In this document: positions 9,287 to 36,431 of the stretch, in pieces | How positions within the stretch are numbered: the first letter of the stretch is position 1 | Layout of the letters: every line of letters begins with the position of its first letter | Origin: Parapedobacter tibetensis | GTDB lineage: Bacteria; Bacteroidota; Bacteroidia; Sphingobacteriales; Sphingobacteriaceae | DNA: 64,000 nucleotides | Direction of reading: 5' to 3' | Assembly (NCBI RefSeq): GCF_024704835.1 | Contig: NZ_JAMXBE010000001.1 | Location: 310,001-374,000, forward strand | Notes under the pieces: model-generated | What the model saw: only the letters and a program-made list of their open reading frames with translations | The model's database searches: none | What the model was told of the DNA's origin: nothing | Position numbers and translations under genes: made by a program

Positions 9287-9300
9287 AATAAACAATAGCG

Positions 9301-9810: not shown

Positions 9811-9849
9811 TCATGGAACACAGCTGACGCTGATCCGTATCGTCCGCGT

Positions 9850-13257: not shown

Positions 13258-13268
13258 CTTTCCGTCTA

Positions 13269-16484
<3,216 letters not shown>

Positions 16485-20077: not shown

Positions 20078-20719
20078 CTATATTACGCCTCTACTGTATA
20101 AAATTTTAGCTTCTTCATAGTCTTCAGGGGAATTGGCGTTGAACAGTTCCAGATCATTTTCCGGACTTACTAGCTTGGTATCTGCATTTATCAAAAAATT
20201 TCTCGGGCTCCTGTTCGTTGTTTCCAATATGGATTCCGCTAATAAGGCCAACCCATGCGGTTCCCATATACCGACCAATGGTTCCGGCAGGTTTGACCCA
20301 TGTCCGGCGTATACCGTGGCAACTTTTTTGGGATCCCTATTTTCAACCAACGATTGGATGGATTGTGCGCTGAGGAAGGGCAAATCAACAGCCACCACTA
20401 ACCAAGCCCTATTCGGATGGGCGCGGTGGGCTGTTAGCATCCCATTCAATGGCCCCCCATACACGTTTTTATCTACGATGTGGGGCAAGCCAGAATCCAT
20501 GATATGCTGCTGGTCACTGCGACAACTGATATAGGTTTCAGCACAAAACTGATCTAGCATCCGATACAAGTACGTTCGCTGATTGGTTTGATGATATTGA
20601 AGAGCGCCTTTGTCTCTGCCCATCCGGATACTTTTTCCCCCGGCCAAAACCAAGCCATATAGTCTACTTGTTGCATGCATACTAACCCCCGTTTTGGCCT
20701 TGTATCTCATTTTCTCCAT
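20078..20719 (-). CDS. mobA: Molybdenum cofactor guanylyltransferase
   Basis: Adds GMP to the cofactor to form the bis-MGD type used by nitrate reductases of the NasA class, which fits the island. The nucleotidyltransferase signature is LYGLVLAGGKSIRMGRDKGA, followed by WLVVAVDLPFLSAQSIQSL with the metal-binding aspartate, and EPLVGIWEP near residue 160. The protein is up to 213 residues. Alternative starts at 20710 and 20680 (MHATSRLYG) would shorten a non-conserved leader. It lies five bases after the moaA stop. Confidence 0.92.
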   Translation of the reverse strand: MEKMRYKAKTGVSMHATSRLYGLVLAGGKSIRMGRDKGALQYHQTNQRTYLYRMLDQFCAETYISCRSDQQHIMDSGLPHIVDKNVYGGPLNGMLTAHRAHPNRAWLVVAVDLPFLSAQSIQSLVENRDPKKVATVYAGHGSNLPEPLVGIWEPHGLALLAESILETTNRSPRNFLINADTKLVSPENDLELFNANSPEDYEEAKILYSRGVI

Positions 20720-20724
20720 CCTGC

Positions 20725-21702
20725 CTACCCTCCGATGAGTGTCATTGATTGTATGTTTGTCAGTCGTTTTTCCGCTTCGAAGCCATCCTTATACCGGGAT
20801 TGGATTGCAGCATAGATACTGGACTCCAATCCCTCAGGATCTAGTATCCCTCTCACCATGGGTTTCAGGTCGACGGTCTCTGCTGCATAGAGGCAAGTCT
20901 GTAGATGCCCCTTGGCTGATACCCGTATTCGATTGCATGTTCCGCAAAACGTCCTGGAAAATGAGGGGATAACCCCAAAGGAACCCATGCCTCCCGGCAC
21001 TTTATAGTTTACGGAAGTGGAAGATTGGGACGTGGGCAGTTTCTCGATCCTTGGAAAATGTGATTTGATAAGCGCCAGAATCCGCACATGGTCCCATTCC
21101 AATACCTTCCCGCCGATAGATTGGCCATTGAAAGGCATTTCTTCCAAAAAACGTACATTGATAGGGTTTTGATTGGCAAAGTGGACAAAGGGAATAATGT
21201 CATCGATATTTATGCCAGCCATCACCACACAGTTCAACTTAACATCGAAACCATGGTCGACCAGTTGATGGACATTGGCGATTACAGTATCAAAACTATC
21301 CCTTCTCGTGATGGCGTGTACACGCTGCCTGTCCAGGCTGTCGAGGCTAACATTGATGCTGCTGATATGGAGTTTTTTCAATGCCTGGATATGAGGGCCT
21401 ATTAAAGTCGCATTGGTTGTAATGGAGATATCGTCCAATCCGGGAAGGTAAGCCAATTTTTCCAGAAAAGACATCAGCCCTTTCCGGACGAACGGTTCTC
21501 CACCCGTTATCCGGATTTTATTGACCCCCATGCCCACAAAAACCTTGGCTAAGGTAAACAGCTCATCCCAGCTCAACAACTCGCTCCGCTTGGCAAAGGA
21601 CACCCCTTCCTCCGGCATGCAATATTGGCAGCGCAGGTTACAGCTATCCGTTACCGATAGCCGCAGGTAGTTCGTCACTCTCCCATGGTTGTCTATAAGC
21701 AT
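20725..21702 (-). CDS. moaA: GTP 3',8-cyclase, radical SAM
   Basis: First enzyme of molybdenum cofactor synthesis. The radical SAM cluster motif is CNLRCQYC (near residues 21-28), followed by the ITGGEPFVRKGL block. The second cluster is bound by cysteines in FCGTCNRIRVSAKGHLQTC. The protein is 325 residues and ends in the expected Gly-Gly (TLIGG). It is the first of seven cofactor-operon genes and starts 12 bases downstream of the response regulator stop, so regulator and enzymes may be on one transcript. Confidence 0.97.
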   Translation of the reverse strand: MLIDNHGRVTNYLRLSVTDSCNLRCQYCMPEEGVSFAKRSELLSWDELFTLAKVFVGMGVNKIRITGGEPFVRKGLMSFLEKLAYLPGLDDISITTNATLIGPHIQALKKLHISSINVSLDSLDRQRVHAITRRDSFDTVIANVHQLVDHGFDVKLNCVVMAGINIDDIIPFVHFANQNPINVRFLEEMPFNGQSIGGKVLEWDHVRILALIKSHFPRIEKLPTSQSSTSVNYKVPGGMGSFGVIPSFSRTFCGTCNRIRVSAKGHLQTCLYAAETVDLKPMVRGILDPEGLESSIYAAIQSRYKDGFEAEKRLTNIQSMTLIGG

Positions 21703-21714
21703 TGGAGCAAAAAT

Positions 21715-22377
21715 TTAAATCGTGAGGTCTGCATGCTCTTCAATTTTCTTCAAAAGTTCCACCACGTTGTTCACCTTCAATTTTTTCATGATGTTGAAGC
21801 GGTGGGTTTCGATGGTTCGGACACTTTTTCCCAATTGCTCGGCAATTTCCTTGTTTCCGATTCCATTGGCAATCATTTTGAGGATTTGTTTCTCCCGTTT
21901 GGTGATGTCATGGCTACCGGATAGGGTTGTATTATTGCCGATTTTCCCCTGTTTTACATCCAAATAACGGTTGACCAATACGTTGCTGATGTCGCCACTG
22001 AAATACTTCCCGCCTTGTTGTACGGTCTTGATGGCCTTCATAAATTCTTCCCTGCTGGTATCTTTGAGCAGATATCCCTTAGCACCGCTTTCAATGGATT
22101 GGAGGATATAATCCTCATCATCATGCATCGAAAGGATAAGTACCTTCGTATTGGTGGATGATTCAGTCAATTTTTTGGTCGCCTCCAGCCCATTCATGAC
22201 AGGCATCCGGATATCAATGATCAATAAGTCCGGCTGCAATTCTTGTACAGCATGAATCGCTTCTTCACCGTTAGAAGCCAACCCAATGACTTGGATCCCT
22301 TCTTCTTCCAAGAGGCTTTTGATACCGCTCCTGACTACCAAATGGTCATCCGCTAATACGACTTTTATACGTTCCAT
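21715..22377 (-). CDS. NarL-family response regulator
   Basis: The 220-residue protein has an N-terminal receiver domain with the acidic pair D10-D11, the phospho-acceptor D55 (LLIIDIRMPVMNG) and the lysine in GYLLKDTSREE. A LuxR/NarL-type helix-turn-helix follows in the C-terminal 65 residues (ITKREKQILKMIANGIGNKEIAEQLGKSVRTIETHRFNIMKKL region). It lies 21 bases downstream of the histidine kinase gene, its likely partner. Its position between nitrite reductase and cofactor genes suggests nitrate or nitrite control of the island; this is inference. Confidence 0.93.
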   Translation of the reverse strand: MERIKVVLADDHLVVRSGIKSLLEEEGIQVIGLASNGEEAIHAVQELQPDLLIIDIRMPVMNGLEATKKLTESSTNTKVLILSMHDDEDYILQSIESGAKGYLLKDTSREEFMKAIKTVQQGGKYFSGDISNVLVNRYLDVKQGKIGNNTTLSGSHDITKREKQILKMIANGIGNKEIAEQLGKSVRTIETHRFNIMKKLKVNNVVELLKKIEEHADLTI

Positions 22378-22398
22378 CCGTTTATTGAATTTATTGAT

Positions 22399-24207
22399 CT
22401 ATTCCAAAGGAATGTTGATGCTTATGGTAGTTCCTTGCCCCGCTACAGAAAAAATCCGACAATCGCCATTGATAAAATTAGCCCGCTCCCGTATATTGAA
22501 GATACCGTGGCCTGTAGCGGAAAAATGACCTTTTTCCTCCAATTTTTTGATATCAAATCCTTTCCCATCATCTTTAATTTCCAAGCTAAGATACTGAGAA
22601 TTATGCGAAATAATAACCTTTACTTCCGTGGCCTCCGCATATTTTATGGCATTATTTACCGCTTCCTGCACAATACGGTAGATATTGTTTTCTACTTTTC
22701 CTTCCAACCTGGAGAGAAACCCTGTCTTATTTTCAAACGTTACCTTGAGGCCGGATATTTTTGTGATTTCCCGACAAAATTTACTCAATACGCGGACGAT
22801 ACCATAATCAGACAGTGCACTAGGTGTAAGGTTGAAGGAAATCCTGCGTACTTCCTTAATCACATTTTTCAACAATTCCCGGGATGCTTTCAACTTTTCA
22901 CGTTCTTTCCCAGCGTTAATCGATTGGATACCCTCCAGGTTGAACTTCATGGCCGAAAGCAATTGCCCCACTCCATCGTGCATGTCCCTGGATATCCGCT
23001 TGCGTTCTTCCTCCTGCCCCTCTAGGATCAATGCCGACCTAAATTGCTGTTCCTTGACACTTTTTGCAATCCGCTCCCTGTTAATCTCCCGTGAAATGGC
23101 CATGGCTTCCTTTTTTTCCGTCTCATCGCTACCAATCACCATCAATGTTTCCACCTTGCCCTGTTCATCCATGGTGGGAACAATATTGAGTTTGAGCCAT
23201 ACGAAATCGCCGGCTGTATTGGTAACTTTTATTCCTCCATTCCATGATTCCCCCACCAACACCATGTCCTTGATACGCTGTAGGTGTTCTTCGCTATGCC
23301 CCTGCTCTTGGAGCCAATCGAACAAGTTTGCGGGTTTATCCATATCAAATTCCATGGAAGCTGTAAAGCGATCATAAAAATGACTGAAGTCCCCGTTTCC
23401 GTCACACTTGGCATACAACATGAAATCCTCCTCGCCCCGCACATCTGCTTCCAACAAATCTTGATAAGCCTGCTCCAAGGAGTTGTATAGCGCACTTACC
23501 TCCAATGCCATCTTCTTTGCTTTCTCCCGTGCTTCGGAAAGGTTGTCGATTGTCTTGCGGATAGACCGTGCTAAGGGGAAGAAAATAAAAAACAACTCCA
23601 TCACGATTACCCCAAGTGAAAAAATCATGATGAATATTTCCACCTTCTTGAGATCCATGACTTTGGTCTTGGCTTCATCATCGTATTGAAACACCACCTC
23701 ATCCATACCCCGAAGAAACGCTCCTTCATGTTTGATTATGGTATTGATATCGGCCCGTAAACTATCCGCGGGTATATTGATATCATGGGTAAGGTTGTTG
23801 ATCAAGCGCTGGGCGGCACTTGCCATTTGTTGGTGGTCCGCATTGATTTGGGTAAAGAGCTCATCGATCGCCCTGCTGTTATGGCCTTTCACGCCCAATG
23901 CGTCATCGCCATGTTGCAGGCCATCATGGGCTTTGCGCCACTCGTCGAGCGCGGTTTCCAGCTCGTTTCGGCGTTCTGCTCGGTCAGCAGGGTTTGCTGA
24001 TGTTCCAAGGAGAAGCGCACATTTACTAATCCGCTGGCTCAACATCCGTTGCCTGCCAGAAAGGTTGACCACCCGGGAGTCATTTTTCTGTTCACTAATG
24101 TATTGTTGTACCAATGCTTGGCTGATGATGATGCTGGCAGCAATGGCACACAACGCAATCAGGTAATACCTTCCTAGATTTTCGAATTTCGGCTTTTCCG
24201 TTAGCAC
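22399..24207 (-). CDS. NarX-like sensor histidine kinase with PilJ-type nitrate-sensing domain
   Basis: The 602-residue membrane kinase has TM1 at about 14-33, a periplasmic helical PilJ/NarX-like domain (about 34-185), TM2 at about 188-212, a PAS-like region (about 260-365), a HisKA_3 domain with phospho-acceptor H410 (ISRDMHDGVGQLLSAMKF) and a HATPase region with QEAVNNAIKYAEA, DDGKGFD and GHGIFNIRER. Just after TM1 is LSGRQRMLSQRI (49-60), resembling the nitrate-binding P-box of NarX and the PilJ-domain consensus. Together with the NarL-like regulator next to it, this predicts nitrate/nitrite sensing. A tandem 7-bp repeat lies upstream of its start. Confidence 0.9.
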   Translation of the reverse strand: MLTEKPKFENLGRYYLIALCAIAASIIISQALVQQYISEQKNDSRVVNLSGRQRMLSQRISKCALLLGTSANPADRAERRNELETALDEWRKAHDGLQHGDDALGVKGHNSRAIDELFTQINADHQQMASAAQRLINNLTHDINIPADSLRADINTIIKHEGAFLRGMDEVVFQYDDEAKTKVMDLKKVEIFIMIFSLGVIVMELFFIFFPLARSIRKTIDNLSEAREKAKKMALEVSALYNSLEQAYQDLLEADVRGEEDFMLYAKCDGNGDFSHFYDRFTASMEFDMDKPANLFDWLQEQGHSEEHLQRIKDMVLVGESWNGGIKVTNTAGDFVWLKLNIVPTMDEQGKVETLMVIGSDETEKKEAMAISREINRERIAKSVKEQQFRSALILEGQEEERKRISRDMHDGVGQLLSAMKFNLEGIQSINAGKEREKLKASRELLKNVIKEVRRISFNLTPSALSDYGIVRVLSKFCREITKISGLKVTFENKTGFLSRLEGKVENNIYRIVQEAVNNAIKYAEATEVKVIISHNSQYLSLEIKDDGKGFDIKKLEEKGHFSATGHGIFNIRERANFINGDCRIFSVAGQGTTISINIPLE

Positions 24208-24263
24208 CTGATTTCCTCGTTAAATAAAAAGTAAAATGTAAAAACCCCGAAGGGCTCATTCAA

Positions 24264-24275
24264 ACCTTTAAAGGT
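24264..24275. promoter_or_regulatory. 12-bp palindrome upstream of the histidine kinase
   Basis: ACCTTTAAAGGT is a perfect 12-bp palindrome in the kinase leader region. The overlapping TACCTTTA (minus strand, 24269-24276) is one mismatch from the -7 consensus, so this could be the kinase promoter with an embedded operator. Confidence 0.3.
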
Positions 24276-24311
24276 AAGCAATGAATCAATAATTCAAAAT
24301 CTAAATCATCA

Positions 24312-24388
24312 ATCTCATATCTCATATCTCATGTCTCAAATCTCATGTCTCATGTCTCAAATCTCAAATCTCATGTCTCACATCTCAC
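24312..24388. repeat. Eleven tandem heptamers, consensus ATCTCAT
   Basis: Exactly 77 bases made of eleven 7-base units of form RTCTCAN (ATCTCAT, GTCTCAA, GTCTCAC and so on). The array ends nine bases before the nirD stop codon and lies about 105 bases upstream of the kinase gene. It is non-coding; array length could vary by slippage. Confidence 0.92.
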
Positions 24389-24397
24389 ACCCCCTAC

Positions 24398-24775
24398 TTA
24401 CTCTTCAAAGCCCACAAAAACGTATCCGTCTTCAATCTTGATGGGGTATGTCGCGATGTCGCAGGTCTCACCATTAAGGTTTTTACCCGACTTGAGGGAG
24501 AATGTTTTCTTATGGAAAGGGCAAGCAACCTTGGGTTCATCCGCATCCGAACCGATCATGCCCCGTGACAGGGCCATTTGCATTTTGTGGGGACATAGGT
24601 TTTGGCAAGCATACCACTCCTTTCTTCTTGCAAAATTGAAGATTGCGATTTGGAGGTCTTTATATTTGATACAAGCCCCGCCATTTTCCGGGAAGGCATC
24701 TACCGGAGCCGCCCTATACCAAGTAGACACTTTGGTTACTTCCGTTGTTTTGTATTTTTCCAATTCAAAAATCAT
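24398..24775 (-). CDS. nirD: Nitrite reductase small subunit, Rieske-type
   Basis: Small partner of NirB in NADH-dependent assimilatory nitrite reductase. The 125-residue protein has a Rieske fold, and all four [2Fe-2S] ligands appear present: C61 and H63 (NLCPHKMQ) and C85 and H88 (ACPFHKKTFSL). Many NirD proteins have lost these ligands, so this one may carry a cluster. It is preceded by nirB after a 120-base spacer, larger than usual, that contains a palindrome. Confidence 0.93.
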   Translation of the reverse strand: MIFELEKYKTTEVTKVSTWYRAAPVDAFPENGGACIKYKDLQIAIFNFARRKEWYACQNLCPHKMQMALSRGMIGSDADEPKVACPFHKKTFSLKSGKNLNGETCDIATYPIKIEDGYVFVGFEE

Positions 24776-24878
24776 TGTTGCTTATTATTAAAGTTTGTTC
24801 ATAAATCAGTGGCCGGGTTAGCATAAACTAAAAATAGAACGCAGATGACGCCGATATTACGGATTTACACAGGGATTT

Positions 24879-24892
24879 ACCCTAATTAGGGT
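24879..24892. repeat. 14-bp palindrome in the nirB-nirD spacer
   Basis: ACCCTAATTAGGGT is a perfect palindrome located just after the nirB stop. A second AGGG upstream (24871-24874) could pair with the CCCT, giving an alternative fold. It may be a processing or weak attenuation signal, or part of a common intergenic repeat; the spacer shows no T-run. Confidence 0.35.
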
Positions 24893-24895
24893 TAA

Positions 24896-27391
24896 TTAAC
24901 TCCATGATGCTGGAATCTTTTGCCCCCGCATTTCCTGAAACTCCAATGAGGGATCCGATTCATCCGAATTCACAAAAGACTTGAATTTGGCACGCAATTC
25001 GGGATTATTCACCACCTCTTTCCATTCACAGGAATACGTCTGGACCATGAACGCCATATCGTTTTCCAGCTCTTCCCCGATACCCAAGGAATCATTGACC
25101 ACCACATCCCGCAGGTAGTCCAGCCCCCCCTCCAATTTATTGAGCCAAGTGGCTGTACGAGTGAGGGGTTCGGCCGTCCTGATGTAAAACATCAGGAACC
25201 TGTCGATGTACTTGAGACAGGTTTCACTATCCACATCCGTGACCAGCAATTTGGCATGTTGTGGCTTCGATCCGCCATTGCCACAAACGTAGAGATTCCA
25301 GCCTTTTTCCGTGGCTATGATACCAAAGTCTTTGCTTTGGGCTTCCGCGCATTCACGGATACATCCGGAAACCGCCCCTTTGAGTTTATGCGGCGATCGG
25401 AGTCCCCGGTATCGTTCCTCCACGCGTATGGCAAAAGACACAGCGTCCTGTACACCATAGCGGCACCATGTAGTTCCCACACAACTTTTAACGGTTCTCA
25501 ACGATTTGCCGTAAGCATGGCCGCTCTCAAACCCGGCATTGATGAGCTCTTCCCAAATATCCGGCAACTGGTCTACCCTGGCACCGAACATATCTATCCG
25601 TTGACCACCTGTTATTTTTGTATAAAGCCCATACCTCTTGGCGATCTCGCCGATGACAATCAGCTTATCCGGCGTGATTTCACCCCCGGGGATTCTTGGC
25701 ACCACAGAATAAGAACCTCCTTTCTGGATATTCGCCAGAAAACGGTCATTGGTATCCTGGATGGTATCTTGTTTGACAATCAATTCGTTCCACGTACTGG
25801 CAAGAATGGAGGCGACCGCAGGTTTGCATATCTCGCAGCCGTCTCCTTTGCCATATTGGTCTATTAATTGGTTAAATGTTCTGATTTTTTTGATTTTCAC
25901 CAAATCCAGCAATTCTTGCCGGGAATAGTCAAAATGCTCGCAAAGTACATTTTTGACCTGCTTGCCCATCACCTTCAATTGATGTTTGAGCAGGTCATTG
26001 ACCATAGGAAGGCAGCCACCACATCCTGTACCGGCTTTTGTGCAGGCTTTGATATCGGCGATTTGTGTCAGCCCATCTTTTTCAATGGCCATGCAGATTG
26101 CCCCTTTACTGACGTTTTCACAGGAACACAGCTGTGCTTCGTCCGGCAAACTCTCCACCCCGGCGCCGACCATTTCCCCACCGCCCCTGTTTCCTAGAAT
26201 CAAAGCCTCCGGCTCCGGTGGCAGGGCCATGTTATTTTGTACCATCTGCAGGAGCATGCCATAGGCAGAAGCATCGCCAACCAGAATACCACCCAAAAGC
26301 TTTTTTCCATTGGCAGCGATGTTAATCCTTTTGTAAATTCCCTTTACCTTATCTTCAAAAACAATCGGCTTGGAAGGCTCCGCATCGCCAAAAGGGTCTC
26401 CAAAACTTCCTACATCCACACCGATTAGCTTGAGTTTGGTAGACATATCATAGCCAAAAAATGGTTTGACCTCCGCCTCCGTCAATTGGTTTACCACTTG
26501 GGCAGCCATTTCATACCCCGGGGCTACCAATCCATAAATCATGTTTTTGTAAGATGCAACCTCCCCTATCGCGTAGATGGATTCATCGGTGGTCTGCAAA
26601 AACTCATTGACAACCACCCCACCCCGCGCAGCGACTTCCAGTCCACATGCCTTGGCAAGCTCGTCACGGGGCTTGATTCCTGCCGAGACCACTAGCATAT
26701 CGACGGCCAATGCTGAGCCATCTGCAAATTGTAAACCCGTTAGCTGCTCTTCTCCATTGATTTGTTGCGTACTTTTACTTAGATGAATTGAAATACCTAG
26801 GCTTTCTAGTTTTGATTGGAGGATGGATGACCCTGCGGCATCAAGCTGACGGGGCATTAGCCTGGGGGCGAATTCGATGACATGGGCTTCTAGTCCCATA
26901 TCCATGACCGCCTTGGCTGCTTCCAGACCCAATAGTCCGCCACCCATCACGGCTGCGGATTTCGCTTTTCTGCCATACGTCATGATTGCATCCAAATCCT
27001 CCAAGGTACGGTAAACAAACACCCCAGTCTTCTCCACTCCTGGGATCGGTGGCACAAATGCCGCAGAGCCGGTGGCAAGAATAAGTTTATCATAAAAAAC
27101 TTCCACACCACTGTGGCTTACCACTTTCTTATGCTCACGGTCTATATGCACCACCAGTTCGTTGGTAAGCAGTTCAATCTGATTTTCCTGATACCAGCCT
27201 TTCGAAGCCATGATCAGATCATCGGCTGTGGATCCCGAAAAATAAGCACTTAGGTGTACCCGATCATAAGCTGGCCAGGTTTCCTCCCCAAATACGGTAA
27301 TTTGGAAATCTTTTCTATTGGAGGTAGCGCATAGTTTTTCGCAAAACTTATAGCCTACCATTCCATTTCCGATTACTGCTATCCTTGTCAT
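24896..27391 (-). CDS. nirB: Nitrite reductase [NAD(P)H] large subunit
   Basis: Reduces nitrite to ammonium in the cytoplasm. The 831-residue protein has an FAD/NAD(P) part (IAVIGNGMVGYKFCEKL at the start; AVMGGGLLGLEAAK near 150), a BFD-like [2Fe-2S] domain with C422, C424, C457 and C460, a second BFD-like segment near 485-530, and the sulfite/nitrite reductase half domain (about 555-620, GGEITPDKLIVIGEIAKRYG). The siroheme-[4Fe-4S] ligands are C637, C643 (KSCVGTTWC), C677 and C681 (SGCIRECAEA). It is divergent from cobA, which makes the siroheme precursor, and shares a 118-base regulatory region with it. Confidence 0.97.
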   Translation of the reverse strand: MTRIAVIGNGMVGYKFCEKLCATSNRKDFQITVFGEETWPAYDRVHLSAYFSGSTADDLIMASKGWYQENQIELLTNELVVHIDREHKKVVSHSGVEVFYDKLILATGSAAFVPPIPGVEKTGVFVYRTLEDLDAIMTYGRKAKSAAVMGGGLLGLEAAKAVMDMGLEAHVIEFAPRLMPRQLDAAGSSILQSKLESLGISIHLSKSTQQINGEEQLTGLQFADGSALAVDMLVVSAGIKPRDELAKACGLEVAARGGVVVNEFLQTTDESIYAIGEVASYKNMIYGLVAPGYEMAAQVVNQLTEAEVKPFFGYDMSTKLKLIGVDVGSFGDPFGDAEPSKPIVFEDKVKGIYKRINIAANGKKLLGGILVGDASAYGMLLQMVQNNMALPPEPEALILGNRGGGEMVGAGVESLPDEAQLCSCENVSKGAICMAIEKDGLTQIADIKACTKAGTGCGGCLPMVNDLLKHQLKVMGKQVKNVLCEHFDYSRQELLDLVKIKKIRTFNQLIDQYGKGDGCEICKPAVASILASTWNELIVKQDTIQDTNDRFLANIQKGGSYSVVPRIPGGEITPDKLIVIGEIAKRYGLYTKITGGQRIDMFGARVDQLPDIWEELINAGFESGHAYGKSLRTVKSCVGTTWCRYGVQDAVSFAIRVEERYRGLRSPHKLKGAVSGCIRECAEAQSKDFGIIATEKGWNLYVCGNGGSKPQHAKLLVTDVDSETCLKYIDRFLMFYIRTAEPLTRTATWLNKLEGGLDYLRDVVVNDSLGIGEELENDMAFMVQTYSCEWKEVVNNPELRAKFKSFVNSDESDPSLEFQEMRGQKIPASWS

Positions 27392-27439: not shown

Positions 27440-27457
27440 TAATATTACGTAATATTA
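27440..27457. promoter_or_regulatory. 18-bp perfect palindrome between nirB and cobA, likely operator
   Basis: TAATATTACGTAATATTA is fully symmetric. Its centre is about 21 bases from the nirB -7 box and about 22 from the cobA -7 box, so it covers the -33 zone of both divergent promoters. TTACGTAA recurs 10 bases further (27455-27462) and again at 27488-27495, inside a 12-bp palindrome near the cobA start. The bound regulator is unknown; the NarL-like protein of this island or a CRP/FNR-type protein are candidates. Confidence 0.6.
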
Positions 27458-27470
27458 CGTAAAAAATACT

Positions 27471-27478: not shown

Positions 27479-27509
27479 TTTTATAAATTACGTAATTAAT
27501 AAGACGGAG

Positions 27510-28304
27510 ATGACACACGAGCCAAAACTCACCCTACTTGGAGCTGGGCCGGGAGACCCGGATTTAATGACCCTGAAGGGCGTTAACGCGCTGAATACGG
27601 CTGATGTGGTGTTATATGATACCCTTGCCAATGAGGCGTTGTTGGCACATGCCCCGGCAAAAGCCTTGAAACTATTCGTTGGGAAAAGATCAGGCAAGCA
27701 CTGCGTACCGCAGGAAGAGATCAATCAGCTTATTGTCCACTATGCTTATACCCATGGTCATGTCGTCCGTCTTAAAGGCGGGGATCCATACGTATTTGGG
27801 CGAGGTCATGAAGAATTAGCCTATGCCGATAGGCATGGGATTCCAGTAGCGTACATTCCTGGTATAAGCAGTGCGGTGTCGGTGCCGGGTCTTAACGGTA
27901 TTCCATTGACCAAAAGAGGCGTGAATGAAAGCTTTTGGGTAGTGACGGGCACATTGACGGATGGGAGTATAGCGAAGGACCTGTATTTAGCGGCGCAATC
28001 GTCTGCTACCGTGGTGATTTTGATGGGGGTAAAGAAGTTGCCGGAAATTGTCGCAATCTTCAAGAAATACAGGGGAACGGACGAATGCATTGCAGTGATC
28101 CAAAATGGAAGCAAAGACACTGAAAGACGCATTTTTGGGGAAATGGGAAATATCTTGAATATTCAAGAGGAAGCTCAGATAGGTGCCCCGGCCATTATCG
28201 TTATTGGGAAGGTGGCTGGGGAGCCTTTGGGTTCGGATAATTATCGCTTTCGTCCTCATCAGGTCTTTTGTGCAGACATTGAAAATCCTTTTCCACCAGA
28301 ATAA
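27510..28304 (+). CDS. cobA: Uroporphyrinogen-III C-methyltransferase (siroheme branch)
   Basis: Methylates uroporphyrinogen III to precorrin-2, the precursor of the siroheme needed by NirB. The 264-residue protein has the SUMT motifs: LLGAGPGDPDLMTLKG at the start, VVLYDTLAN, VRLKGGDPYVFGRGHEE, YIPGISSAVSVPGLNGIPLTHR-type block (here with TKRG) and the C-terminal GAPAIIVIGKV. About 29 residues beyond that point are not typical and are encoded antisense to the end of the DUF7009 gene; the two genes overlap tail to tail by 104 bases. Dehydrogenase and ferrochelatase steps are not encoded in the window. Confidence 0.95.
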   Translation: MTHEPKLTLLGAGPGDPDLMTLKGVNALNTADVVLYDTLANEALLAHAPAKALKLFVGKRSGKHCVPQEEINQLIVHYAYTHGHVVRLKGGDPYVFGRGHEELAYADRHGIPVAYIPGISSAVSVPGLNGIPLTKRGVNESFWVVTGTLTDGSIAKDLYLAAQSSATVVILMGVKKLPEIVAIFKKYRGTDECIAVIQNGSKDTERRIFGEMGNILNIQEEAQIGAPAIIVIGKVAGEPLGSDNYRFRPHQVFCADIENPFPPE

Positions 28305-28593: not shown

Positions 28594-30024
28594 CTAGCTC
28601 ATGATTAACTTAAAGGCAGATTTCGGACTATCGCAGACCGGACAACAATAGGCATCGGACAACTTCATGAAGGAGGTTCCTGATGGGATATCGGCTTCCG
28701 CGTCTCCGAATTTTTCATCATAGACCGTAAGGCAATTAGCACATTGGTATTTACGGTGCTGTTTCACGACCGTTTCTACACCACTTTCTGTGGCTTCGGA
28801 TGGCTTTCGGGCTTCCAATTGGTCATAGTACTTATAGCTCAGTTCAATTAATAGCGGAGGCAAGGTTTCCTTGGGCACCTTCTTCGCGTAGTAGAAATAC
28901 TCCGAAAGATTGGGATTGAAGTCTTTGGAATAAAGTATATTGAAGGTGTCCGCATCGCTTTCTTTTTCCTTCTTAGCCTTTTCGATGGCCACGGAAGTAA
29001 ACAGCGACATATGCTGGGTCTTGATGGAGAAACTCAGGCCATAGGTGCTGATGTCCTGCTTATCCAGTGCCCTTACCAGGTAATTTTTTATCTCCAGCGC
29101 TTCCTCATCCAAAACCGGCAAATGCCAATTGAGTTCCAACGAGCTATGGCGGATATTGATACCAAACTTCCCGAGAAGCTTTTCCCAACTGAGCCGGTCT
29201 TTTTCAGCAATGCCCTTCACGATAATGGATTTCCAAGGTGTAAGGCTGATTTTACCAATATTGGTTTCGATGCACAGTTGGCATAGCGCCTTTAGGAAAT
29301 TAATATTGAACTCATTGTTTCTCCAATACAATCCCAACCAATATTTCCCGCCCACAATGCGGTTCATCCCCTCATAATAAGGGGATGTAGCTTCAGGATA
29401 TACCAATTCCTGTTCCACGGCATGGGTATCGGGAGCAACCGCCGATTTGACCTTTTGATAGATTTCGGGATAGCTCAAATGACCTGTCAATGGATCAAGG
29501 TCTTCAATGGCTTTGGATATTTTGGCCAAGTCATACCCATAAATCAGATCTGGCGCACACCATGGCTTGGAATCCAAATCGGCGAACCTCAGGTAGAGAT
29601 ACCAGTAGTTGTCTTCGGAAGAGGCAACAAAATTGATATTACCGGTAAAAAGCGGGACCAGCGTTTGGACGGGATCCGTAATGTTGATTTTGAGTTTGGG
29701 TTTATAGTCAAACGTGTCGAGGATATAATGGTAGGTATGAGATGCCAACCAGTGGGTGGTAGGCATCACGTCCAGCGCCACATAGGAAGTCATGATATTC
29801 TGAAATTCCTCGCCACCGGTGTCATAGTCTGTATTGATGGCACTGAAGGTTGTATCCAAGGTTTCCGAATTCTTATTCTTCGAAGGGAAAAGTATATCCT
29901 GCCGGGAACCTAAATGCACGTAACTGGCGCCCAGTTCGTTGGCCGTCTGGATGGTTCTTTGAAAATCCCCTGGAGAAATAATCCCGCCTTTGACAAACAC
30001 CCTGACTAAATCTACTTTCTTCAT
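28594..30024 (-). CDS. Rubredoxin-tailed protein with nitrite/sulfite-reductase-like half domains
   Basis: The 476-residue protein has no exact functional name. Residues 2-47 (VRVFVKGGIISPGDFQRTIQ, then VHLGSRQDILF) resemble the ferredoxin-like half domain of NirB in this window (GGEITPDKL and KITGGQRIDMF). A second copy is seen near 225-275 (GKISLTPWKSIIVKGI). The Cys-x5-Cys and Cys-x3-Cys ligands of the siroheme-[4Fe-4S] centre are not found. The C-terminus is a complete rubredoxin: C428-x2-C431 and C461-x2-C464, with the canonical 33-residue spacing. It lies 8 bases after the nitrate reductase gene. I infer an electron carrier or docking partner for nitrate reductase. Confidence 0.72.
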   Translation of the reverse strand: MKKVDLVRVFVKGGIISPGDFQRTIQTANELGASYVHLGSRQDILFPSKNKNSETLDTTFSAINTDYDTGGEEFQNIMTSYVALDVMPTTHWLASHTYHYILDTFDYKPKLKINITDPVQTLVPLFTGNINFVASSEDNYWYLYLRFADLDSKPWCAPDLIYGYDLAKISKAIEDLDPLTGHLSYPEIYQKVKSAVAPDTHAVEQELVYPEATSPYYEGMNRIVGGKYWLGLYWRNNEFNINFLKALCQLCIETNIGKISLTPWKSIIVKGIAEKDRLSWEKLLGKFGINIRHSSLELNWHLPVLDEEALEIKNYLVRALDKQDISTYGLSFSIKTQHMSLFTSVAIEKAKKEKESDADTFNILYSKDFNPNLSEYFYYAKKVPKETLPPLLIELSYKYYDQLEARKPSEATESGVETVVKQHRKYQCANCLTVYDEKFGDAEADIPSGTSFMKLSDAYCCPVCDSPKSAFKLIMS

Positions 30025-30032
30025 GTTTTATG

Positions 30033-33000
30033 CTAAGATAGGCATGATTTTTCAAAAATAAACTCATCGAGCATGTGTTTCACTTCGGGTTTGCAACTTC
30101 CGCACCCTATCCCGGCGCCGGTTTGTTGACACAATTGCCTGAATTCTTGGCAACCGGACTGCATGGCCTTGACAATGTTTCCCCTACCTACATTGCCACA
30201 AGAGCAGACCAGCTCTCCGATTATTTCCACTTTGGCAACGTTGCCCCTGAGCAGCTCCTGCCGCTTTTTGGAAAGTTCGGTCCTTTCTTCAATCAGACTT
30301 TTGAACTCCGCAAATTCGGATTTATCCCCCATGAGGATAGCACCCACCAACCGATCTTGGTGTACAATGCATTTTTTATAGTAAGTCTGGCTGGTGTCTA
30401 TCAATAGGATTTCCTCATAACCTTCCCCATTGGCGGGGATTTCCGGGATACCCACAGAACATAGGTCGAGTTCTGCAAACTTGAGGATGTTCAGGGATAC
30501 TGACCCACGGTAAATGCTCAACAGGTCGCCAGATAGATACCTTGCGGCATGGTCTGCCTGGGCTTCCGCAGCGGCGGTGATGCCATTGAGCTTACCGTTG
30601 TGCTCAGCGATTTCCCCCATTGCAAAAATAGCTGGATCCTCGGTCTGTAGGTAATCGTTGACTTTGATTCCTCTACCACAGGCAAGGCCTGCAGACTTCG
30701 CCAATTCGATATTGGGTCTTGTGCCTATGGCATAAACCACTGCATTACATTGGATGGTTTTCCCGCTTTTAAGGTAAACTGAATTTTTCTTTTCCTCCGG
30801 ATGGGGAACAATACGGTCCACTTGGTTGTTCATGAAGAGCTGCACCCCCATTTCTTCAATTTTTTCCCTGAGCAGGGAACTGGCCATGGGATCCAATTGC
30901 CGTTCCATCAGCCTCGACCCAAGTTGTACAATGGTCACTTCCACATCGATTTCTCGGAGCGCGGCGGCCAATTCCAATCCCAATAGACCACCACCCACGA
31001 TTAACACGTGGCCTTGATAGCCCAAGTATGCTTTCAGTTCATCTGCATTTTGGCGGTTGCGCATGGTGAAAACCCCGGGTAGGTGCATCGGTACATCGCC
31101 GGGCACGAAAGCCCGACTGCCTGTGGCTAGAATCAATGTATCATAATGGTGTACTCTCCCCTTTTCATCTGTAACCGTTTTATTGGACCGGTCGATGGAC
31201 TCAACACCATTCTCAATGAATAAGCTGAAATTCAGCATATCCATTTCATTGTTTGATTTAAACTTCTGCAAATCCGCCCATGTCCGGTGCTGGTTGACAT
31301 AGTCTGGCAGCAACACCCGGTTATAGAAAGGGTGTTTTTCCTTAGAAAACACCAATATTTCATCTTCCTGGTTAAATTCCCGATACGTATTGATGAAACG
31401 GTAAGCAGCTGCCCCCGCTCCCACAATGACGATTTTCTGCTTGGGATTCTTGTAGCGGGCCACCTGCACTGCGGTATACTTGAAATCGGGTTGTTTTGAC
31501 ACCGGATCTATGGCATTACCTGTCAGGTTATTCGCCCGGGCAAAGTCATTATGCAATATTTTACCCCAATGCATGGGTAAGAAAACCACACCCCTTTTAA
31601 TCTTATCGGTAACCCGGGCATGCACGCGCACTTCCCCCCGGTTTCCTTCAACCAGTACGGTGTCTCCCTCACTAATACCTCTTCCTGACGCATCATCCGG
31701 ATGGATTTCCAAGAAAGGATCGGGTATATGTTTGGTGAGTCTGCTGACTTTTCCGGTACGGGTCATGGTATGCCATTGATCCCGAATCCGTCCCGTGGTT
31801 AGAATGAGTGGGAAGTCTTCGCTCGTTTTTTCGCATTCGTTCTTCGGACCAGGGGTCAATATTTGGGCTCTACCATTTGGTGTATAGAATTTCTTATCGG
31901 TAAAAAGCCGTTTAACGGTTTCTTTTTCATGGCCTACAAAAGGCCATTGCACAGCCCCCTTGGTCTGGAGGTAATCGTAGTCAAGGCCGGAGATATCCAT
32001 GTTGGTCCCTTTTGTCAATTGCACGTACTCGGCACATACTTCCGACATGTTTTGGAACTCAAAGCCATGGAAGCCCATCTTCCGGGCAAATCGAATCAAG
32101 ATTTCCGCATCGGGAAGCGCTTCCCCTGGAGGCTGATTGAATTTGCTGAGGTAGCTGATTCGCCGTTCGGAGTTGGTCATTGTCCCCTCCTTTTCGCCCC
32201 ATCCTGCTGCCGGGAGTACCAAGTCAGCATAGGGAATGGTTTCCACTTTGTTGGAAATATCTTGTACGACCACAAATTTGGCCTTTTTCAATGCTGCTTC
32301 TACTTTCCGGGCATCGGGGAGGCTTACCAAGGGATTGGTACAGATGACCCAAACGGCCTTGATGCTCCCTTCCTCCAACGCTTCAATGAGTTGCGTGGCC
32401 GTCTTTCCGGGTTTATCGGGCAGGCTTTCCACGCCCCAAAACTTAGCTACTTCATCCCTATGGGCAGGATCAGCCAAGTTTCTGTGGGCAGCCAACAACG
32501 TGGCCATGCCCCCCACCTCACGACCACCCATGGCGTTCGGCTGCCCGGTAAGGGAAAAAGGACCTGAACCTGGTTTACCGATGTGTCCTGTGATTAGGTT
32601 AAGGTCGATCAACGCCAAGTTTTTATTGACCCCTTCGGCACTTTGGTTCAGCCCCATTGACCAAAGGGTCATGAAACCTTTGGCATCACCGATGAAGGAG
32701 GCGGCTTTTTTGATGTCTGCTACGGTGAGCCCACAAACGGCCGCGGCTTTTTCCAGGGAAGTTTGCATAACCACCTCCTTATAAGCCTCAAAGCCATCCG
32801 TATGGCCCTCGATAAAGCCGATGTCTATATCCCCTTGTTCGATTAAGCACCTGCCGATGGCATGGAACAGAGTTTCATCCATACCAGGATTGAGCTGCAG
32901 GTGCAGGTTTGCCAAGGCGCAGCTCTGTGTTACCCTCGGATCGGCCACGATGATTTTGACTCCCGGATTTTGCTCCTTGTGTTGCTCAATCCTCCTCCAT

Positions 33001-33557
33001 AAAATAGGATGGCACCAGGCCGGATTGGCTCCAGCCACAAAGAAGCAATCCGCCAGTTCAATATCTTCATAAGCAATGGGCACGCTATCTTCTCCCAAGG
33101 TTTTGATATAGCCCATAACGGCCGAACTCATACACAGCCTGGAATTGGTATCCAGGTTATTGGTTTTCAAGAAGCCCTTGGCCAACTTGTTGACCAAATA
33201 ATATTCTTCTGTAAGGCATTGGCCCGAGACATAAAAGGCGACTGCATCTGGCCCGTATTTCTCGATGATGGACTTGAACACGGCGCTGGCCCTATCCAGG
33301 GCAGTATCCCAGCTCACCTTTTCCAGCGGATGCGACTTGCCCCAGCGCATCTGGGGATATAGCAGCCTGTCGGACTTGTCAGCAATCACATAGTGGAGGT
33401 TCATCCCTTTAGAACATAACATCCCTTTATTGACGGGATGGTGGGGATCTCCTTCTACGGTGACCTTGCCTTTTTTGTCCTTACGCACAATGATGCCACA
33501 ACCAACACCGCAGTAGGAACAAGTACTTTTAAAGCTTTCTGCCTCTTTTGTTGACAT
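30033..33557 (-). CDS. Assimilatory nitrate reductase fused to NirB-like flavoprotein and BFD domain
   Basis: Cytoplasmic reductase of 1174 residues that joins catalytic and electron-input parts. Residues 1-700 are a NasA-type molybdopterin oxidoreductase: [4Fe-4S] ligands C13, C16, C20 and C48, and likely Mo ligand C142 (TNSRLCMSSAV). Residues 705-1090 are an FAD/NAD(P) oxidoreductase with IVIVGAGAAAYRF near 709-721 and VLIVGGGLLGLELAAAL near 851, closely similar to NirB of this window. Residues 1115-1165 are a BFD-like [2Fe-2S] domain (C1118, C1120, C1152, C1155). The fusion should let NAD(P)H electrons reach the molybdenum site in one chain. It is preceded by the nitrate transporter gene (17-base gap). 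Confidence 0.93.
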   Translation of the reverse strand: MSTKEAESFKSTCSYCGVGCGIIVRKDKKGKVTVEGDPHHPVNKGMLCSKGMNLHYVIADKSDRLLYPQMRWGKSHPLEKVSWDTALDRASAVFKSIIEKYGPDAVAFYVSGQCLTEEYYLVNKLAKGFLKTNNLDTNSRLCMSSAVMGYIKTLGEDSVPIAYEDIELADCFFVAGANPAWCHPILWRRIEQHKEQNPGVKIIVADPRVTQSCALANLHLQLNPGMDETLFHAIGRCLIEQGDIDIGFIEGHTDGFEAYKEVVMQTSLEKAAAVCGLTVADIKKAASFIGDAKGFMTLWSMGLNQSAEGVNKNLALIDLNLITGHIGKPGSGPFSLTGQPNAMGGREVGGMATLLAAHRNLADPAHRDEVAKFWGVESLPDKPGKTATQLIEALEEGSIKAVWVICTNPLVSLPDARKVEAALKKAKFVVVQDISNKVETIPYADLVLPAAGWGEKEGTMTNSERRISYLSKFNQPPGEALPDAEILIRFARKMGFHGFEFQNMSEVCAEYVQLTKGTNMDISGLDYDYLQTKGAVQWPFVGHEKETVKRLFTDKKFYTPNGRAQILTPGPKNECEKTSEDFPLILTTGRIRDQWHTMTRTGKVSRLTKHIPDPFLEIHPDDASGRGISEGDTVLVEGNRGEVRVHARVTDKIKRGVVFLPMHWGKILHNDFARANNLTGNAIDPVSKQPDFKYTAVQVARYKNPKQKIVIVGAGAAAYRFINTYREFNQEDEILVFSKEKHPFYNRVLLPDYVNQHRTWADLQKFKSNNEMDMLNFSLFIENGVESIDRSNKTVTDEKGRVHHYDTLILATGSRAFVPGDVPMHLPGVFTMRNRQNADELKAYLGYQGHVLIVGGGLLGLELAAALREIDVEVTIVQLGSRLMERQLDPMASSLLREKIEEMGVQLFMNNQVDRIVPHPEEKKNSVYLKSGKTIQCNAVVYAIGTRPNIELAKSAGLACGRGIKVNDYLQTEDPAIFAMGEIAEHNGKLNGITAAAEAQADHAARYLSGDLLSIYRGSVSLNILKFAELDLCSVGIPEIPANGEGYEEILLIDTSQTYYKKCIVHQDRLVGAILMGDKSEFAEFKSLIEERTELSKKRQELLRGNVAKVEIIGELVCSCGNVGRGNIVKAMQSGCQEFRQLCQQTGAGIGCGSCKPEVKHMLDEFIFEKSCLS

Positions 33558-33574: not shown

Positions 33575-34927
33575 TTAACTGTTTGCAAATTCGGGCTGCA
33601 ATTCTTTTTCAGCCAAGAGCTCGTCCATCTCCACTTTCGTAACTTGTTCGTCCGCTTTGGAGAATTGGATCAGCAAGGCGGCTGAACTGATGATCGCCAC
33701 GGCAATACCTAAAATGGCTAAGGCCCCGCTATATGAAAGGGACTCGATTTTAAGAAGGAATCCGGCCAGTACTGCACCCACATTGCCTCCTGCCCCTACA
33801 ATACCGGAAACTACACCGAGGGCTTTTTTATTGATGAATGGTACCACTGAGTAGGTAGCACCTTCTGCCATTTGGACAAAGAGGCTGAACAAGATCATGG
33901 TACCGATGGCCAAGGGTAAAAAGGTCATCTGAGAAAACAGTATCAATGACAACCCCTCTACAAAAACCACACCTCCCAAAAACAATACCCTGCCTTTCAG
34001 CCCCCATTTGATCCCGATCTTGTCGCCATAAATTCCACCCAGCGATCGCGCAAAAAGATTCATCAAGCCGAAAAGACCAGCAATCAGCCCCGCTGTTTTC
34101 AGGTCAAGCTTGAAAAAGTCATGGTAATAGATGGCGGCAATGTTATTGATGGTCAGTTCGATGCCGAAGCAGGCCCCATAGATGAGGAATAACGCCCAAA
34201 CCCGCTTATCCTTGATGGCAGTCAGGAATGCACCTTTTCCTTCCTCCTTTTTCTTTCGCTTGTAATCCAAGTCGGTCTTACTCAGGTTTGCGATATTCCC
34301 TTCCGGAAAATCTGTCGTCCATTTATAATAGGCAATTCCACAAAGTATCATGGCCACACCAGGCACGACCATGGCATATCGCCAGGCGTCCGTAGCGATA
34401 AAGCCAAGGGAAACAAACAGGGCAAAGATTATGGGCATGACCATTTGGGTGATGCCTCCCCCCAGGTTACCCCAGCCAGCAGACGTCGCATTGGCCGTTC
34501 CCACCACATTTGGGGCAAACATCACGGAGGTATGGTACTGGGTGATGACAAAGGAAGCACCGATTACCCCGATGGCTAGGCGGAAAATCAAAAAGGATTC
34601 GTAACTGGTGCTCATCCCAATGAAAATAACCGGCAGTGCACCCAACACCAACAAATACGTATAGGTAATCCGAGGGCCTATCCGGTCGACCAGCCAACCG
34701 ATAAACAACCTGGCAATTACTGTAATGGCTACGGAAGCAATGATGATGTTGCCAATTTGTGATTTGCTCAGGTCAAGTTCTTCACGGACGATGGCCATCA
34801 GCGGAGCGATCCCGAACCATCCGAAAAAACAAAGGAAGAAAGCGATCCACGACAAGTGAAACGCACGCATTTGTGGAGACTTGAAATCTAATAAGTTAAT
34901 CGTTGTTGCTTTTTTTGGGGATTTCAT
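33575..34927 (-). CDS. NarK-type nitrate/nitrite MFS transporter
   Basis: Inner-membrane carrier (450 residues from the ATG at 34927, 12 hydrophobic segments). The start of helix 1 reads MRAFHLSWIAFFLCFFGWFG with IAPLM following, typical of the nitrate/nitrite porter family. The nitrate-signature glycine-rich segments appear as GWGNLGGGITQMVMPIIF and IVGAGGNVGAVLAGFLL. The frame is open back to 35053, but that upstream stretch overlaps the porin gene and has no family match. It lies between the porin and the nitrate reductase in the same operon and should bring nitrate into the cytoplasm. Confidence 0.95.
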   Translation of the reverse strand: MKSPKKATTINLLDFKSPQMRAFHLSWIAFFLCFFGWFGIAPLMAIVREELDLSKSQIGNIIIASVAITVIARLFIGWLVDRIGPRITYTYLLVLGALPVIFIGMSTSYESFLIFRLAIGVIGASFVITQYHTSVMFAPNVVGTANATSAGWGNLGGGITQMVMPIIFALFVSLGFIATDAWRYAMVVPGVAMILCGIAYYKWTTDFPEGNIANLSKTDLDYKRKKKEEGKGAFLTAIKDKRVWALFLIYGACFGIELTINNIAAIYYHDFFKLDLKTAGLIAGLFGLMNLFARSLGGIYGDKIGIKWGLKGRVLFLGGVVFVEGLSLILFSQMTFLPLAIGTMILFSLFVQMAEGATYSVVPFINKKALGVVSGIVGAGGNVGAVLAGFLLKIESLSYSGALAILGIAVAIISSAALLIQFSKADEQVTKVEMDELLAEKELQPEFANS

Positions 34928-35001
34928 AGCGTTATTGATTATTGATGGATTATTTGTATCGATATCATTACGAGTTATATCATATGATAAAGGGTTATGC
35001 G

Positions 35002-36303
35002 TTATTTGCTGGCAAAAAGCGTGGGATTGAAACGAATCATGGTCCAAGCCCAACCTTGGTAAGCTGGCGTATCCTGTTTACCTTTCAATACCTCGGCTGA
35101 TTCCGTCCTGAACAGCTGGGAATAACCGATGTTTAGGGTGACGGTTTTAGCTAATTTCGCGGTCAACACCAGGTCTACTTCTTCCCCCAGTGACCGGCTC
35201 ATACGTTCGGCGGGTTGTGACGGGTCATGAATCGGTACTGCCGATTCAAAATGGTGGACATGCGCCAATAAGCTTGTGGTGCCGGATAGCTTGAAGTTGG
35301 TTTTCAGAAAGAAGTCTTTCAGTCCGGCAGTGGCGCCTGACTGACCGTGGTTATTTCCCACATAGAAATGATCCATAAAGCCATAGAACTTATGGTTGGT
35401 GCCATATAGTGGATTGAATGCCCTGTTGGTGTTTGAGCCGGGTTCGGAACCGGTCAGGTAATCAGCTCCCAAAACTATTGGGGTGAGCGACGTCTTGTAA
35501 GTCATGCTGGCCGACGCCAACCAAGCAGCGGTTTTCAAACCCAACGGATCCCTGCCGCCTTGGTAGTAAAGCTCCCCATCCAGGTTTATCTTATTTAGCT
35601 GCTTTTGACCCGTGAATCCAACGGTCTGCCTGAAATTCACCTTTTTGCTGGCTGCTTCAGGGTCTGGGTTTTGCCGCCCGTCATTGAACACCAATAGGGA
35701 TAGAAATGATCGTTCAAATGTCCTATGCAACCAGATAAATTGCATGGTCTTATAATTGTCCATCCCCTCGTAAAGTGTGCCCGAGAGTTTACTTGGTTCA
35801 AAGGGAACGTTTTGGTTATATCCGGCACCGACATGTATTTTTGTCCCCAAAGAATCATCGTACGTCAATAATGCTGCGTCGTGGCTCCTCCCTTGTTGGG
35901 CCCAATCCAAGTCGCCCAGAAAACGGGCATTATCGTAATCCAGGGTTTGCCTGCCCACTTTAATGGCCAAGGTTGGGGATATCGCGTATGCACCCCAAGC
36001 TTCAAACATGTTAAACAGGGAAGAATCCGTTTTATAGATTTGATTGGTGCTTCCCCATACTCGCACATCCTGTGCTGAAAGACGGAAAGTAAGTTTTTCT
36101 TCTTGGAAGTGGACATTCAACCGAGATCGTTGCTCCGTAAAAAAAGCAGGTTTCTGTTCTGTTGTGTGTAGTGTCTTAAAACCATTGCGAAACTCCACCC
36201 TTGGGCGAATCTCACCGCTGATCGTCAATTGACCGAAGGATTGGGTAGCAAAAGCCGACTGAAAGAAGGCTAGGATTAGAAAATTACGTAAAAATACGTT
36301 CAT
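35002..36303 (-). CDS. Outer-membrane porin, alginate-export (AlgE-like) family
   Basis: Signal peptide (LILAFFQSAFATQSFGQ) followed by alternating beta-strand sequence with repeated aromatic girdle residues. It matches the alginate_exp family: QLTISGEIRPRVEFRNGFK at the start, FFTEQRSRLNVHFQEEKLTF and a strand KVGRQTLDYDNARFLGDLDW. Total 433 residues, ending in a beta signal (MIRFNPTLFA-SK). Proteins of this family next to nitrate genes in Bacteroidota are likely to be general anion pores; here it is first in the nitrate operon and presumably admits nitrate across the outer membrane. No alginate genes adjoin it on this side. Confidence 0.85.
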   Translation of the reverse strand: MNVFLRNFLILAFFQSAFATQSFGQLTISGEIRPRVEFRNGFKTLHTTEQKPAFFTEQRSRLNVHFQEEKLTFRLSAQDVRVWGSTNQIYKTDSSLFNMFEAWGAYAISPTLAIKVGRQTLDYDNARFLGDLDWAQQGRSHDAALLTYDDSLGTKIHVGAGYNQNVPFEPSKLSGTLYEGMDNYKTMQFIWLHRTFERSFLSLLVFNDGRQNPDPEAASKKVNFRQTVGFTGQKQLNKINLDGELYYQGGRDPLGLKTAAWLASASMTYKTSLTPIVLGADYLTGSEPGSNTNRAFNPLYGTNHKFYGFMDHFYVGNNHGQSGATAGLKDFFLKTNFKLSGTTSLLAHVHHFESAVPIHDPSQPAERMSRSLGEEVDLVLTAKLAKTVTLNIGYSQLFRTESAEVLKGKQDTPAYQGWAWTMIRFNPTLFASK

Positions 36304-36400: not shown

Positions 36401-36431
36401 TACGTTTTTATACGTAAAAAAGTGCGATAAA

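Follow-up and report, generated by a model that had tools for sequence, protein, structure and literature searches.

A periplasmic sensor kinase of the Bacteroidetes narHK class that probably controls nitrate assimilation in Parapedobacter tibetensis, with a predicted operator and a urea-linked sister clade

The stretch of Parapedobacter tibetensis DNA analysed here (64,000 nucleotides, hereafter the window) encodes a sensor histidine kinase at 22399..24207 (- strand). We regard it, with a probability of roughly three in four, as a nitrate sensor that faces the periplasm, belongs to the narHK class of Bacteroidetes and serves to control the assimilation of nitrate. A type of sensor best known from nitrate respiration would then very probably control nitrate assimilation in Bacteroidota. 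The analysis provides a testable operator and a small regulon, and one family of genomes offers natural controls, namely nirB genes with the kinase and nirB genes without it, the latter often with another dyad in their promoters.

The kinase gene, defined by its open reading frame, Pfam matches and a structural model, has a GTG start and encodes 602 amino acids in the order TM1, periplasmic PilJ four-helix sensor, TM2, helix, weak PAS, HisKA_3 and HATPase_c. The PilJ domain (PF13675) was matched at residues 38-137 with 63.2 bits (cut-off 26.6) and the kinase core with 53 bits (HisKA_3) and 59.5 bits (HATPase_c). Since this is the single PF13675 match in the 5.98-Mb genome (E 8.7e-18), chance is no issue. 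PAS_9 was matched at residues 297-364 with 17.1 bits, under its cut-off of 27; in the Echinicola relative (L036) the PAS domain is over the cut-off with 32.3 bits. No HAMP or GAF domain was matched in the window kinase by Pfam profiles at E<=0.01. After a gap of 21 nt the kinase gene is followed by that of a NarL/FixJ-type response regulator (21715..22377, - strand; Response_reg 107.7 bits, GerE 65.8 bits, by Pfam). A sequence-only reading of this DNA had described an arginine-containing, P-box-like motif right after TM1 in a PilJ-type domain (residues 49-60) and a NarL-type partner in a nitrate locus, and all of this was borne out by the searches and by the genes around the kinase. Its term "NarX-like" was too loose, as the protein has no HAMP domain and belongs to another class.

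The window kinase is a member of the narHK class of Bacteroidetes (Gushchin et al. 2021, PMC8199190; Indibacter alkaliphilus type). According to the accessible part of that paper, the nitrate/nitrite-sensing kinases narHK/narRR of Bacteroidetes are HAMP-less, GAF-less and partly PAS-bearing, and have nitrate genes nearby. They share with the window the PilJ/NarX-like sensor, the G-x-x-R motif, the NarL-type partner, the missing HAMP and GAF matches, and the nitrate and molybdopterin genes nearby. Membership of NarX or NarQ was rejected, because there is no HAMP domain after TM2 and the scores against the NCBIfam equivalogs (NarX, 75.8 bits, cut-off 578; NarQ, 70.9 bits, cut-off 553) are far below the cut-offs and come mostly from the kinase core. 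The E. coli systems NarX-NarL and NarQ-NarP resemble the window pair in sensor fold, G-x-x-R motif, HisKA_3 core and NarL-type regulator; unlike NarX and NarQ, the window kinase is without HAMP and its proposed target is assimilation, not respiration.

The genes around the pair form a nitrate locus. Upstream of the kinase gene lie nirD (24398..24775, - strand; Rieske-type small subunit, Pfam Rieske_2) and nirB (24896..27391, - strand; large subunit of NAD(P)H nitrite reductase, by Pfam). Divergent from nirB is a gene of the uroporphyrinogen methyltransferase (SUMT) type with a TP_methylase domain (27510..28304, + strand), which, from knowledge of the family, we take to supply siroheme for NirB. 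An operon on the - strand is headed by an outer-membrane porin-like gene (35002..36303; a putative name, the same gene being matched in related loci), followed by narK, an MFS transporter matched by Pfam and, from its context, probably for nitrate/nitrite (33575..35053), the assimilatory nitrate reductase gene nasC, with molybdopterin, NirB-like FAD and BFD domains in one chain (30033..33557), and a ferredoxin-like nitrite/sulfite reductase (SIR) gene with a C-terminal rubredoxin, by Pfam (28594..30024). A DUF7009 gene is also among the genes upstream of the kinase. On the other side, moaA (20725..21702, - strand) begins 12 nt after the regulator, and downstream of it are mobA (20078-20719), moeA (18881-20071), a TauE-like exporter gene, moaE and moaC/mogA, to position 16524; the names of these genes, moaA included, are presumed from sequence resemblance. 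The gap between nirD and the kinase contains a 7-bp/21-bp tandem repeat (TCTCAAATCTCATATCTCATG) of 3.6 copies at 24312-24387.

Profile searches found NarG over the cut-off in 0/23 genomes and NapA over the cut-off in 0/23. These genomes were 22 with a class A (see below) or nitrate-linked f10 kinase, the window's genome included, and G737, which has a distant PilJ protein. In G576 a NapA-like match split in two pieces was just under the NapA cut-off, and this genome probably carries NapA. In the window's genome the sole strong NapA-like match was NasC itself, with a weak trace elsewhere (E 8.6e-4). As neither enzyme was over its cut-off there, the nitrate pathway found is assimilatory, and a respiratory role was set aside, on a dissimilatory search that covered NarG and NapA only.

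In the order, 18 of 400 genomes had a PF13675 match, and in the phylum a profile of the sensor found a match in 42 of 395. A tree was built from 66 sensors; 33 of these form one clade (support 100/97), made up of 27 kinases here called class A and six called class B. Of the class A kinases, 26 of 27 are accompanied by nirBD, nasC or the rubredoxin/SIR gene within a stretch of up to about 20 kb, and in most class A loci the kinase gene adjoins nirBD; the 27th (L037) lies at the start of a contig, with moa genes after it. The nitrate-linked kinases of the distant family f10 (L161, L166 and L212) fall outside the clade of 33, as does L184, the one locus that also had a respiratory NarH-like neighbour (40% identical to NarH). 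The window kinase is joined in the tree by that of Echinicola arenosa (100/97); L029, L028 and L024, the kinases from its own genus and family, branch elsewhere. Identities to Echinicola are 66% (kinase), 77% (regulator) and 81% (nirB), far above those within its own family (nirB, 69% at best) and genus (kinase, 36-37%); thus the block at 20725-27391 was likely gained by horizontal transfer. In L024, the kinase (8975-10758) and nasC (12848-16356) each appear split over two frames in a one-contig genome, and these splits are perhaps sequencing indels.

The motif LSGRQRMLSQRI (24028..24063, - strand), N-L-S-G-R-Q-R-M-L-S-Q-R, is just past TM1, and G51-x-x-R54 within it would be the nitrate site. 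G51 and R54 align with G58 and R61 of McpN and with the G-x-x-R motif of NarX and NarQ; P. aeruginosa PilJ also retains G-x-x-R, within a changed N-box. In the accessible text of the McpN study, nitrate receives two hydrogen bonds from R61, the R61A protein is non-binding (PMC6381276), and the NarQ counterparts are given as Gly47 and Arg50 in PMC8199190. In the strict N-box pattern of McpN, [IVL]-[ND]-x-A-G-x-Q-R-M-L-[ST]-Q, the window agrees at 11 of 12 positions, with Ser for Ala at position 4, so the strict form is absent from the window kinase; it was found in 9/27 class A kinases, a relaxed form ([AS] at position 4, [STGC] at 11) in 26/27, and G-x-x-R (G51-R-Q-R54 in the window) in 27/27. 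Judged by these residues, the motif is nearer to the N-box of McpN than to the P-box of NarX.

An AlphaFold monomer model of the sensor, built from six relatives (mean pLDDT 84.8), has four long helices, with the motif on one long helix (5-69) that continues TM1; the dimer pocket is beyond a monomer. A Foldseek search ranked NarQ best (6xyn, E 2e-3) and McpN third (6gcv, E 5e-3), with no match reaching E 0.001, and four-helix bundles match widely. By VIA, the model superposed on McpN with Z 15.0 (2.4 A over 124 residues), and the top match was PilJ of P. aeruginosa (Z 17.4). The sensor domain of this PilJ bound neither nitrate nor nitrite (PMC6381276, accessible text). Since PilJ has G-x-x-R and yet does not bind nitrate, the fold and G-x-x-R alone are not proof; the intact N...QRM core of the class A clade is the better argument for nitrate, which we infer to be the ligand of the window sensor. 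The proposal in the sequence-only reading of external nitrate sensing in an assimilatory system is partly supported, by the predicted periplasmic nitrate-type pocket, the NarL-type partner and the absence of NarG and NapA over their cut-offs; the P-box by itself does not prove it.

The example of PilJ, together with the PAS-like segment, could also mean that the P-box is structural, that the real signal is cytoplasmic (redox or oxygen through PAS) or is ammonium or 2-oxoglutarate, and that nitrate sensing is incidental. We consider this the least probable of the alternatives, as in the class A alignment (26 kinases, L185 not included) G51, Q53 and R54 are kept in 26/26 and M55 in 25/26, just these neighbours differ in the sister clade, which is no longer at nitrate loci, and the window protein has only a weak match to PAS. 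A different alternative is a sensor whose main signal is nitrite, or which responds to both oxyanions, and which works as a switch for nitrite detoxification or uptake. The adjoining nirBD in most class A loci would suit such a role, and NarX and NarQ respond to both nitrate and nitrite (accessible parts of PMC8199190 and PMC6381276). However, the motif has more in common with the one in McpN, a protein that bound nitrate but no nitrite (PMC6381276, accessible text), and the predicted operator sites are found also before the porin-narK-nasC operon. A sensor mainly for nitrite or for both is unlikely, at about one chance in five by our estimate, and nitrate control of assimilation is the reading that we prefer.

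The regulator of the preferred reading has a candidate binding site. The exact sequence TACGTA-N4-TACGTA occurs once in the 5.98-Mb genome (reversed control, 0), as TACGTAATATTACGTA at 27446..27461. It lies in the divergent nirB/SUMT promoter, 55-70 nt upstream of where nirB starts, and this promoter also has an extra single TACGTA at 27489..27494. Two predicted sites with one mismatch each are TACGTTTTTATACGTA (36401..36416), 98-113 nt before the porin-narK-nasC operon, and TACGTAAAAATACGTT (36285..36300), over the porin start. In all, the window has 6 matches at up to 2 mismatches, where 0.72 was expected. In the 260 nt before nirB of 24 class A loci we found 70 copies of TACGTA, where dinucleotide shuffles gave an expectation of 3.98, and every locus had two or more (24/24). 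TACGTA was also found upstream of nasC in 8/14 class A loci, nasC being mid-operon in several, and upstream of the porin in 4/6. A looser form, TAMGTA-N4-TACKTA, had 158 occurrences across 24 genomes and its reversed control 56; in the window's genome it had one and the control 2, and thus only the strict form is specific there. The arrangement TACGTAA-TA-TTACGTA has the geometry of inverted heptamers in a 7-2-7 spacing. NarL and NarP sites have a 7-2-7 half-site arrangement, with TACYYMT as the NarL half-site consensus; the spacing recalls these sites, and the window half-site TACGTAA differs from that consensus. We predict that the TACGTA pair is the operator of the NarL-type regulator, and this predicted operator would connect nirB as well as the porin-narK-nasC operon with the regulator.

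Presence and absence of the kinase were compared in the window's family, where 76 of 201 genomes have NirB. TACGTA was found in the nirB promoters of 5/5 kinase-positive genomes (G1416 among them) and of 2/71 kinase-negative genomes, the latter with a single copy each (Fisher p 1e-6); the paired motif was found in 4/5 and 0/71 (Fisher p 4e-6). As the promoters are related by descent, the Fisher p values are only a guide. The kinase-negative status of the 71 comes from the PilJ search, and G149, G337 and G363 carry another PilJ protein. The kinase-less promoters (upstream of nirB in L218-L246 and L283-L328) contain another dyad, [AT]TGAT-N4-ATCA[AT], in 32/71 cases (0.49 expected by mononucleotide shuffling) against 0/5 with the kinase (Fisher p 0.07) and 0/24 class A promoters, so these species may use another, perhaps Crp/Fnr-type, regulator for nirB. 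In the genus of G548, the paired motif was present in 30/30 of the nirB promoters obtained (43 NirB genomes among 144). Among ten short loci of this genus, six have the kinase farther downstream, two end at contig ends, and the other two (L275 and L280) are from the kinase-bearing genomes G423 and G615; this genus yielded no negatives, and the kinase-negative promoter control is from one family only. No TACGTA was found in 3/3 nirB promoters of f10, and the recognition helix of the f10 regulators differs.

Kinase, regulator and promoters appear to be co-inherited, and motif and kinase may be linked by descent and not by function; TACGTA might then belong to another regulator that travels with the locus, with the kinase pair controlling something else. 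This is improbable in our view, if slightly less so than a purely structural P-box. TACGTA is missing from 69/71 kinase-less nirB promoters of the family and from the 3/3 loci with the divergent regulator, and urea-linked regulators go with a related TAC..GTA palindrome upstream of their own operon (4/4 genomes, one genus).

On the reading that we prefer, nitrate from outside would enter the periplasm through the porin and nitrate, perhaps also nitrite, would be bound where two G51-x-x-R54 motifs meet on the dimer axis. The signal would pass via TM2, the HAMP-less helix and the PAS-like segment to the HisKA_3 core, which would phosphorylate the NarL-type regulator. The regulator may then bind TACGTA-type sites, with two half-sites 10 bp apart, and most likely activate nirBD/SUMT and the porin-narK-nasC-rubredoxin/SIR operon. 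The joining of the kinase-regulator genes to molybdopterin-cofactor genes would fit into this scheme, and ammonium control on top is possible.

The six class B kinases come from three genera of Bacteroidota and branch as a single clade within the kinases of nitrate assimilation (L031, 9839-11641; L032, 8062-9864; L033, 9703-11505; L034, 9112-10950; L026, 9119-11107; L148, 9657-11471). In L031-L034, from one genus, the kinase-regulator pair comes directly after UrtABCDE and urease genes; UrtA-E and urease alpha of L031 are over the NCBIfam cut-offs, and the neighbours in L032-L034 were assigned by similarity. In L026 the pair follows UrtA. In L148 the genes of UAAP1, UAAP2 and allophanate hydrolase run divergently from the pair, with a UrtA-like protein (250 bits, under the cut-off of 492.75) and a urea-ABC binding protein (TIGR03427) encoded nearby; the genome of L148 also has a class A pair beside nirBD (L162). 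Class B is rare, as it was found in 1/395 genomes of the class sample, 1/299 in the genus of G548 and 4/93 in the genus of G149, in addition to L026 from the search of the order. Two further genomes from the class B searches, G1259 and G960, proved to be class A.

In class B, Q53 is changed to Leu (6/6), M55 to Thr (6/6) and G51 to Ala (5/6), and R54 is kept; in class A, G51 is kept in 26/26. Seven sensor positions separated the two classes by our rule, and two of them flank R54. A predicted palindrome, TAC-YTAR-GTA, stands before the urea operon in 5/6 class B loci: as TACTTAAGTA before the urt operon in 4/4 genomes of the genus of L031-L034, where it runs into a -7-like box, TATATTTG, in the three upstream sequences examined, and in L148 at three sites near its two operons, with one elsewhere in 20 kb. 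No such palindrome was found before UrtA in L026. The urea-gene neighbourhood together with the change of the flanking residues suggests that the ligand has changed, urea being the simplest candidate. Both molecules, nitrate and urea, are flat and three-armed, so a small change in the pocket could swap them. Even so, we put forward the switch from nitrate to urea in this lineage only tentatively, at somewhat less than even odds. Guanidine was considered as the ligand for L148, and the urease-linked class B loci favour urea. Guanidine pathways likewise involve allophanate hydrolase and UAAP1/2, and no guanidine riboswitch was found in L148 at gathering scores. If real, the urea-linked clade would be a compact natural experiment in ligand change of a sensor pocket, and annotation as a "nitrate sensor" by domain only may mislead on the ligand.

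Open-access searches returned nothing directly relevant on a urea sensor kinase of the PilJ type; on assimilation control by such sensors in Bacteroidetes or Flavobacterium, only PMC8199190 was directly relevant, with PMC6381276 for the pocket. The accessible part of PMC8199190 does not treat an assimilatory role and names no operator and no urea-linked relatives. Two findings appear to be new, namely the predicted operator, for which presence and absence of the kinase served as control, and the sister clade linked to urea genes. McpN of P. aeruginosa (PMC6381276, 6gcv) shares with the window the PilJ domain, the QRMLSQ core and the arginine (R61, here R54), whereas it is a chemoreceptor in its output with Ala at N-box position 4, and the window protein is a kinase with Ser. 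Nitrate-responsive control of assimilation is common to the window and to NasS-NasT and NasR, whereas the window has a membrane sensor and a DNA-binding regulator. NasS-NasT and NasR sense in the cytoplasm and act on RNA. For NasS-NasT, the accessible text of PMC3795266 describes a nitrate-responsive complex that releases an RNA-binding protein.

Some minor observations were made in the surveyed loci. In f10, a second PilJ kinase-regulator pair without a P-box was found (L173, 9389-10966; L179, 8723-10216; L213, 8741-10342), near a gene that resembles peroxiredoxin genes and away from nitrate genes; in the neighbours of L173, the P-box is replaced by the SALQRHQSQQIVK type. A changed P-box was found in L172 (9481-10911) and L177 (9442-10881), as SARQRTLSQSI and SARQRALNQTI, and the nitrate and urea query genes gave no match near either. 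Rfam RF02514 (5' ureB sRNA) was matched antisense inside urease alpha in two class B loci, L031 (8175-8470, - strand) and L032 (11234-11518, + strand).
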